NCBI RefSeq assembly: GCF_000225705.1
Contig: NZ_JH126474.1
Span: forward strand, 1 to 40,177
Direction: 5' to 3'
DNA from: Collinsella tanakaei YIT 12063
GTDB taxonomy: Bacteria > Actinomycetota > Coriobacteriia > Coriobacteriales > Coriobacteriaceae
DNA: 40,177 nucleotides
The notes under the pieces are model-generated. The model did not search any database and was not told where the DNA came from. It saw nothing but the letters and a program-made list of their open reading frames with translations. Each line of letters opens with the position of its first letter. The stretch's first letter is position 1. The position numbers and the translations under genes are program-made. Shown in pieces: positions 1-40,177 of this stretch.

Positions 1-54
1 CTCGCCTGCTGGGCCTGGGAGGTCGGCAGGCGCGCCGAGGGGACGCTCGCGTAG
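1..54 (+). CDS. IS110-family transposase, C-terminal fragment (partial)
   Basis: Frame 1 reads LACWAWEVGRRAEGTLA and then TAG at 52-54. This resembles the closing segment of IS110-family transposases, which commonly ends in an RELAxxxW-like helix. Only 17 codons are visible because the window starts inside the gene. The same strand and family appear at the other edge (39847 onward), which supports the reading. Other frames are also open here, so the assignment rests on the short motif and on context. Confidence 0.5.
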   Translation, partial: LACWAWEVGRRAEGTLA

Positions 55-109
55 CTCCCCGGGGCCCACATAGCCTTCCCGCCGGGAGGGCCCGCGCTTC
101 GACGCATCG

Positions 110-375
110 CCGGGACCGGCTCACGACCCTTTTTATGGGCAGCCCGAGGGCCGCGCCCGACTATCGAGACTCCAAGGTTTTTCGAAACGACGGTCCCGGA
201 CGCAGAATCGAAATGCGGTAGCGCGCGGCGACATACCTGAACCCGCACGCCGCGCCACGAGCCCGCGGATATTAGCTTGCCAGGCGAGCGACGACTAACG
301 AGCATCCGCGCGGGCCCGACCGGTCGTAATACGAGAAGGTCCGGAAAGAAATTTCCGGACCTGGCAGCTTTTGCC
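110..375 (+). ncRNA. Candidate structured (bridge/seek-type) RNA region in the IS110 right end
   Basis: Several perfect or near-perfect stems follow one another. A 9-bp arm at 110-118 pairs with 191-199. GCGCGGCG at 223-230 pairs with 248-255. CCCGCGGAT at 262-270 pairs with 304-314 with one bulge, and encloses two inner stems (272-275 with 295-298, and 275-280 with 284-289, which share one base). An 11-bp hairpin with a GAAA tetraloop spans 337-362, and a small hairpin spans 363-375. IS110-family elements encode a guide (bridge) RNA in a non-coding end, and in the IS1111 subgroup it lies 3' of the transposase. Transcription and guide loops are not demonstrated here. Confidence 0.3.
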
Positions 376-399
376 TCTTGACAATGGCTTTCTCATATT

Positions 400-424
400 A
401 AAAAGGGCACCCTTGCGGATGCCC
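400..424 (-). terminator. Rho-independent terminator of the tRNA-Ile/tRNA-Ala unit
   Basis: On the minus strand GGGCATCC, a GCAA tetraloop and GGGTGCCC form an 8-bp stem (one U-G pair) followed directly by five T residues. It lies 12 bases beyond the tRNA-Ala CCA end. Confidence 0.9.
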
Positions 425-39711: not shown

Positions 39712-39767
39712 GCGAGGGGCGGGGCATGAGACGATATGAGTTGAACATTGGGAGCCCCTCCCCTTGC
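39712..39767 (+). ncRNA. Long hairpin in the IS110 left end, candidate structured RNA
   Basis: The arm at 39712-39725 pairs with 39754-39767: 14 positions with one mismatch and one G-T pair, closing a 28-base loop. It lies 80 bases before the transposase start codon. In the IS110 subgroup (for example IS621) the bridge RNA is encoded in the left non-coding end. Whether this hairpin is part of such an RNA or a translation-control element is not known. Confidence 0.3.
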
Positions 39768-39846
39768 AGCTCTATCGTGGGTCGGGCGACAATGGTCGTA
39801 GCGCCAACCGTGGCCGCGCGCCACATGCGACGGAGAGGGGCCCGCC

Positions 39847-40177
39847 ATGTCCAATTATGTCACAGCCATCGGTCTCGACGTCCACGCGAGGAGCATCTCC
39901 GCATGCGCCTTCGACCCCATGACCGGCGAGGTGTCCCGCGCAAGGTTCGGATACGACCCCGCGTCGGTCGCCGAGTGGGCACTGGGGTTCGAGTCGCCCA
40001 AGGCGGTGTACGAGAGCGGCCCGACCGGCTTCCACCTCTGCCGCGCCCTGAGGGCGCTCGGCGTCGACTGCGCCGTAGGCGCCGTCTCCAAGATGCACCG
40101 GCCGGCCGCCGACCGCGGGCGCAAGAACGACCGGCGCGACGCCGAGTGGCTCGCCAGGCTCCTCGCCTGCCGCAACG
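39847..40177 (+). CDS. IS110-family transposase, N-terminal part (runs off the window)
   Basis: The first 110 codons of a DEDD (RuvC-like) transposase. The first catalytic Asp is in AIGLDVHARSISA (about D10), the Glu is in AVYESGPTGF, and SKMHRPAADRGRKNDRRDAE carries the DRRDA motif with the third acidic residue. This order is diagnostic of IS110-family N-terminal domains. The C-terminal transposase_20 domain with its essential Ser lies beyond the window. GAGAGGGG lies 5-12 bases before the ATG at 39847. The frame is intact as far as it is visible. Confidence 0.93.
   Translation, partial: MSNYVTAIGLDVHARSISACAFDPMTGEVSRARFGYDPASVAEWALGFESPKAVYESGPTGFHLCRALRALGVDCAVGAVSKMHRPAADRGRKNDRRDAEWLARLLACRN

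Follow-up and report, generated by a model that had tools for sequence, protein, structure and literature searches.

A very probable IS1111-type insertion sequence at a tRNA terminator of Collinsella, with candidate target guides that appear to change along with their sites

The closest described systems to the locus reported here are the seekRNAs of the IS1111-family elements ISEc11, ISKpn4, ISPa11 and ISPst6 (Siddiquee et al. 2024, PMC11187229) and the bridge RNA of IS110 elements, alongside which bridge RNAs of IS1111 elements have been predicted (Durrant et al. 2024, PMC11208160); both papers are used here in excerpt. As described in those excerpts, IS1111 seekRNA elements carry subterminal inverted repeats and a long non-coding region 3' of tnp, insert without target duplication and encode two short guides for the two strands, the complement of the top strand coming first, and the present element is like them in these respects (PMC11187229). 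Its inverted repeats of 17 bp fall within the 7 to 17 bp of IS1111 elements, its guide-bearing stretch of ~90 nt compares with the 70 to 100 nt reported for IS1111 seekRNAs, and its terminal extensions total 8 nt versus 7+3 or 6+3 (PMC11187229). Like the bridge RNA, the RNA has a loop that matches the target and probably another that matches the donor junction, and like that of IS1111 members it lies in the right end, whereas the RNA of the IS110 group lies in the left end (PMC11208160) and has its guides in reversed order (PMC11187229). While IS1111 seekRNA elements are described at attC, REP or a short linear site, families 1 and 2 of the present elements (numbered below) mostly use the T-tract side of intrinsic terminators, and while expression and binding of the seekRNA are reported for the IS1111 system (PMC11187229), the RNA here is predicted from sequence.

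Positions 1 to 400 of the window (the whole analyzed stretch of 40,177 nucleotides from Collinsella tanakaei YIT 12063) are very probably the right part of an IS1111-type insertion sequence with a guide RNA in its 3' non-coding region. The window starts where contig C8 of the 2.49-Mb genome starts, at a contig break inside the element. Judged by its sequence, this folded stretch most likely specifies a guide RNA belonging to a small mobile element of Collinsella. This kind of RNA is already known as seekRNA or bridge RNA; what the locus and its relatives add is a terminator target class and natural re-targeting. The features discussed below are as follows.

1..54, plus strand: 3' end of the transposase gene, IS110/IS1111 type; frame 1 reads ..LACWAWEVGRRAEGTLA, stop at 52-54
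55..400, plus strand: non-coding right end (IS1111-type 3' non-coding region, 346 nt), placed by identity to the copy on contig C1; its end ..CATATTA is common to copies with differing flanks
110..199, plus strand: putative stem-loop for target binding in the guide RNA; its closing stem, 110-118/191-199, shows compensatory changes, and the loop has covariance-model matches
127..135, plus strand: right target guide CCCUUUUUA, 9/9 complementary to 399-407
137..158, plus strand: inner hairpin between both guides (GGGC 137-140 / GCCC 155-158; GCCC 142-145 / GGGC 148-151)
163..170, plus strand: left target guide, AUCG then AGAC, reading like the top strand of the left junction, with 2 of the 4 variable bases matching in this copy
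258..316, plus strand: candidate donor-binding stem-loop, with GGAUAU(U/G)A in 27 of 29 distinct sequences (not an independent count, because the 29 were picked by motif search)
269..275, plus strand: candidate left donor guide AUAUUAG, with the same letters as the predicted circle junction ATATTA-G
337..362, plus strand: hairpin near the right end
378..383, plus strand: TTGACA, a -35-like box found in members of all five families; putative promoter element
382..398, plus strand: right subterminal inverted repeat CAATGGCTTTCTCATAT (17 bp); the C1 copy has its perfect counterpart, ATATGAGAAAGCCATTG, on the left
401..424, minus strand: host intrinsic terminator of the tRNA-Ile/tRNA-Ala unit, the insertion target; a hairpin against an A-tract
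437-512 and 573-649: host tRNAs of that unit

The domain assignment of the transposase rests on a homologue of 369 aa in L051 (C-terminal end ELACWVWEIGRRAEGTLG; PF02371 at 80.7 bits, PF01548 at 42.7 bits), the window itself holding the last 17 codons only. On the left side, complete relatives have ~119 to 141 nt between the repeat and the protein match. Relatives of the transposase were present in 18 of the 43 genomes of the genus, and a motif for the RNA region matched 29 stretches of named genomes, 26 of them in Collinsella and the rest in Enorma, Olsenella and an Ahrensia MAG. We number the families 1 (the window's type), 2 (TTGAAC), 3 (CAGGAC), 4 (repeat TATGACCCAATCCG) and 5 (L103 to L105). 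A second family in the same genome has another inverted repeat (ATATGAGTTGAACATTG) with identical outer bases. Rfam at gathering scores returned three tRNAs and nothing else. The proposal in the preliminary description, made from the DNA letters, that this was an IS110 element with an IS1111-like guide RNA downstream of the transposase is supported by the 346-nt region, the 17-bp repeats and a covarying stem.

That description had drawn four stems between the transposase stop and the host terminator and had called the region strongly folded. All four stems are present where it drew them, at 110-118/191-199, 223-230/248-255, 262-270/304-314 and 337-362. Strong folding holds for 55-404 (z -3.1; equaled by 1 of 100 shuffles) and for the hairpin at 337-362, which stands out by itself (z -4.7; 0 of 200), but it does not hold for 100-320, which folded no better than shuffles (z -0.9; 34 of 200). 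Whole-region folding energy was rejected as proof for being too uneven. The decision rested on covariation, counted in 17 distinct family-1 sequences and in 20 distinct target-loop sequences from families 1 to 4. Within family 1, stem 110-118/191-199 showed changes on both sides in 4 of 9 pairs, with 97% of cells paired; across families 1 to 4 the figures were 7 of 9 pairs and 82%, one pair being unformed in 9 of the 20 sequences and four others in 8, 7, 4 and 4. For the two helices counted across families 1 to 4, covariation was 0.401 versus 0.166 after shuffling (0 of 500 shuffles as high), slid versions reaching at most 0.109, and pairs with both-side changes numbered 8 versus 6.1 (22 of 500), while the number of pair types showed no excess over shuffles (162 of 500). 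The whole structure within family 1 gave 0.188 versus 0.094 (0 of 500), again with no excess of pair types (357 of 500).

These counts support two of the four stems, 110-118/191-199 and 337-362, the latter with 7 of 11 pairs changed on both sides within family 1. The other two parts of the drawn structure fared less well. Stem 223-230/248-255 is clade specific: no pair changed on both sides, 7 of the 17 family-1 sequences break four of its eight pairs, and families 2 to 4 have no alignable counterpart; stem 262-270/304-314 is neutral, being mostly invariant, with no both-side change and one pair broken in 7 of 17. The inner hairpin at 137-158 has invariant outer pairs within family 1 and one inner pair changed on both sides in three sequences, and its outer helix was paired in 87.5% of cells across families 1 to 4. 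A pairing of 275-279 with 299-303, taken from the minimum-energy fold, was rejected, as one pair was broken in 7 of 17 sequences and none changed on both sides; a short hairpin of 275-279 with 285-289 was kept in 17 of 17. A covariance model of the target loop hit 25 of the 65 genomes available for the bacterial family (E 0.01), spanning four of its six genera, three of which had no part in building the model.

Stems of this sort could be merely structured 3' sequence that acts as a terminator, in RNA stability or in attenuation of the transposase, and the likeness between a U-run and the target could arise by chance because A-tracts are common. The region is GC rich, its part 100-320 folds no better than shuffled sequence, and in the window's copy the 337-362 hairpin is followed by TTTT and looks like a terminator. 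A U-run in that place is found only in some relatives, however, and is missing in L046, L049 and others, so we rejected the hairpin as a transcript terminator.

The preliminary description had expected a guide loop to match bases near 395-405, and positions 127-135 are indeed the exact complement of TA-AAAAGGG (399-407), which takes in the element's two terminal bases and the seven host bases next to them; this is the longest such complement in the non-coding region. What is to be corrected is the place of the guides, both of which sit in the first stem-loop (110-199), none being found in the 337-362 hairpin. As in the IS1111 seekRNA layout, the complement of the top strand (127-135) lies 5' of the complement of the bottom strand (163-170). 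The left guide in the window's copy, AUCG-AGAC-U, matches 2 of 4 variable bases of the left flank CACG-AGAC; the AGAC that follows the variable bases is invariant in 20 of 20 RNAs and common to the left end of the element. Since random host positions find a complement of at least 9 nt in the region in 33 of 4,000 cases (~0.8%), the match at the window's single site is not overwhelming without comparisons.

For these comparisons, 72 entries were merged to 67 and L094, whose left end belongs to another element, was left out, giving 66 insertion rows of which 64 had right flanks and 55 left flanks; the left flank of the window's row was taken from L045. The 21 distinct right guides scored 5.51 on their own sites versus 3.64 when shuffled (64 insertions), and the 13 distinct left guides 2.74 versus 1.30 (55 insertions); the own-guide score was reached by 0 of 100,000 shuffles on either side. 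Left-guide positions -2 to -4 alone gave 1.86 versus 0.95 (0 of 100,000), and taken base by base, positions -1 to -4 were equaled in 3, 1, 2,115 and 5,111 of 100,000 shuffles. Shuffling within families left the right guides at 0 of 50,000 overall (family 1, 0; family 2, 1,559) and the left guides at 6 of 50,000 (family 1, 403; family 2, 871). Nine insertions from a later search, unseen when the guides were first spotted and included among the 64, fitted at 9, 8, 7, 7, 6, 5, 3, 3 and 3 of 9 positions. Among individual cases, L053 has a changed guide, GGCCUCUUUUA, on TAAAAGAGGCC, and L120, from another genus, occupies the same tRNA-Ala terminator with a guide fit of 9/9. In family 5 (three copies in genome G014), which stood outside the permutation tests and whose guide was noticed by eye before checking, CCGUCCCCA fits a quite different target, TGGGGACGG, at 9/9 in all three.

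To judge from these fits, guides change along with targets across elements. The complementarity between internal loop and insertion flanks that the preliminary description had proposed stood up, with several poor fits noted below, and so did the covariation among homologues that it had named as a check, the main stem covarying in family 1 and in families 1 to 4. Chance likeness in a merely structured 3' end accounts poorly for own-site fits that shuffling does not reach, also on the right within families, or for a distant family with a GC-rich target that has a GC-rich guide at the corresponding place, and we regard that explanation as very unlikely. The 21 distinct right guides with their own sites form a natural series of re-targeted guides within one bacterial family, from which one could derive and test how IS1111-type guides pair.

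The sites of the two families in this genome follow the pattern 'pyrimidine-G, A-tract, usually G', and most insertions therefore lie directly behind intrinsic terminators. With a hairpin of -10 kcal/mol or better as the criterion, a hairpin adjoined 14 of 20 insertions in family 1 and 22 of 32 in family 2, or 36 of 52 together. The corresponding counts were 9 of 41 for AAAAG[GC] sites (a control that itself contains terminators, 15 of 41 at a looser cut), 3 of 33 for [CT]GAAAA sites and 186 of 3,000 (6%) for random window positions. Elements at repeated palindromes (REP, attC and Tn21 ends), which we compare in outline, likewise have hairpin-forming, widespread targets, but the right guide here covers just the A-tract and the first stem bases. 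In searches of open-licence papers, most of them covered at the level of the listing, we found no report of terminators as an IS110/IS1111 target class. The T-tract of intrinsic terminators as a target class means many landing sites for the element.

The adjoining hairpins invite another explanation, namely that the transposase recognizes a DNA structure, the terminator hairpin or the T-tract, and is not guided by the RNA. Against this, 16 of the 52 family-1 and family-2 insertions have no hairpin that reaches the criterion, and several copies (L023, L028, L036, L082, L083 and L085) are at A-tracts with a weak hairpin or none, which is why the sequence rather than the hairpin seems to be recognized. 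In families 3 and 4, which share the RNA layout, a hairpin is found at 2 of 8 insertions each, family 5 is at a fixed GGGACGGG site, and targets and guides change together, so that recognition of DNA structure retains a very slim chance. In family 3, the right flank of L068, L092, L098, L128, L130 and L143 is AAAGGAACGTCCC, a dispersed sequence and not a terminator set; the left flanks of L068, L092 and L098 end in GCCGGCA(C/G). On the left side, family-2 copies with the guide CACG have pyrimidine-G in 21 of the 21 left flanks available. The tRNA-Ala terminators of some relatives have TG or AG before the A-tract, which would suit guides such as this one.

The extent of the element follows from its copies. 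Aligning them, as the preliminary description had suggested, fixed the right end at about 400, and not at 60 to 100, because copies with differing flanks all begin with AGACGATATGAG on the left and finish with CTCATATTA on the right; the element had also been said to sit against the terminator of a tRNA unit, and the host tRNA-Ala terminator does begin at 401. That the folded DNA might belong to the host, as a spacer that separates the element from the tRNA unit, has a negligible probability, since positions 1-407 recur with 100% identity in another genomic context (C1:138682-139088), where identity stops at the flanks, and copies at different sites have this end at 400 in common. Less well preserved versions also occur in the genome: a decayed copy at 85% and a relic at 72%. 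Contig C6 ends in what is most likely the left half of the window's copy (L045), a join that we infer; the 17-bp repeat there has one mismatch, and ..GTACGACGTGCAC precedes GAGACG.

One pair of genomes gives an empty and an occupied site. The empty site in G011 reads GCAACGTAAAAGGGG (fuller reading GCAACGTAAAAGGGGTCGCC) and the occupied one in G001 GCAACGTA-AGACG..TATTA-AAGGGG, with junctions GCAACGTA-AGACGATATGAG on one side and CATATTA-AAGGGGTCGCC on the other; the right flanks are 100% identical over 260 bases. In this one pair, a single A is shared and there is no target duplication, which fixes the crossover position; the terminal extensions are 5+3 or 6+2, depending on where the shared A is placed and the repeat starts. 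The G001 copy spans ~3.8 kb between its ends and therefore contains a further insertion. At a second site, occupied in G004, the element end preceded the A-run in 0 of 19 relatives examined, in which the run has 3 to 7 As, once interrupted by T, beside a stem GGAGGCC or GAGGCC. We looked for the precise unoccupied counterpart of the window's insertion site and did not find one; the uninterrupted tRNA-Ala terminator in G022 reads AAAAG-AAAAGGCACC.

Element ends, clean insertion, the RNA stem, the guide/target match and guide/target covariation are all read from sequence, and they suggest a mechanism in which transcription, transposase binding, strand exchange, the donor guide and intact termination are predicted steps. 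The 3' non-coding region would encode a seekRNA or bridge RNA that binds the DEDD transposase of the element. On the right of the insertion point, its 5' guide at 127-135 would pair with the top strand (AAAAAGGG, which in the terminator T-tract is the template strand); on the left, its 3' guide (163-166 plus AGAC) would pair with the bottom strand. The second stem-loop, 258-316, would probably recognize the joined ends of the excised circle via AUAUUAG. Insertion of this circle at the T-tract by the transposase would follow, in a single orientation and without target duplication. Insertion behind the terminator should leave the terminator intact. We can only speculate, and with considerable doubt, that in this lineage of RNA-guided insertion sequences the guide reproduces the 3' end of terminated transcripts (..GCC-UUUUU) and thereby finds intrinsic terminators throughout the chromosome, perhaps via the template strand left exposed by terminating RNA polymerase. 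If so, insertion would be coupled to transcription termination while the terminator is kept working.

The donor side is less certain than the target guides. Joining the ends at the shared A gives the predicted circle junction CATATTA-GACGATATG, to which AUAUUAG is the longest identity in the region (7 nt), and on this basis it is probably a donor guide. Identity between RNA and junction is 7 nt in family 1, 8 in family 2, 6 in family 3, 9 in family 4 and 5 in family 5. The surrounding motif, GGAUAU(U/G)A, differs by one base each in L132 and L062. In the window's region, complements to the circle junction did not exceed 5 nt, and no convincing match was found for a second half of the donor guide. 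Family 4, whose ends are CATATGA and whose RNA has AUAUGAGAC, matches 9 nt of its own junction and 8 nt of that of families 1 to 3. The short complement and this almost equal match to a foreign junction keep the donor guide at the level of a candidate. A junction promoter has been described for IS1111 circles (PMC11187229, in excerpt). The TTGACA box at 378-383, which is TTGGCA in L004 and L127, could contribute to a promoter across the joined ends.

Fits were not uniform among guides. Ties included, the own guide ranked first for 9 of 21 distinct right guides and 9 of 13 left ones. Poor ranks on the right were those of L069 (19 of 21) and L136 (11 of 21), and L051 had a right score of 1 and a left match of 2/4. 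The two big family-2 guides, with 15 and 11 insertions, ranked 12 and 9 and fitted no better than other guides, and family 2 alone was weak for right guides in the within-family shuffles. The copies L086 and L087 in G016 have the left guide CUCA on flanks ending in ATG and ACG, which agree at the last base with the guide CACG of sister copies; this suggests mobilization by the RNA of a sister copy or later conversion.

Several further elements deserve mention. The window itself holds, at 39730-40177, the left end and transposase gene start of a second element, of family 2 (inverted repeat 39734-39750), ~130 bp behind tRNA-Gly, with its right end beyond the window near C8:41186-41223. Contig C12 (L011, 3,650 bp) has two large open reading frames that by eye resemble an IS21-type gene pair, with IS110-type PF02371 matches at both ends, as in a nested insertion or a collapsed repeat. 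L003 (C4:85532-88866) has lost most of the transposase gene and retains both ends and the RNA region, like a non-autonomous derivative. A search of 42 genomes for an empty site at the terminator GGGAGGAG(T/C)CGACTGATCGGCCCCTCCC returned just two occupied copies, L127 and L134, in which different related elements from two species share this terminator, with A-runs and guides that differ in length.
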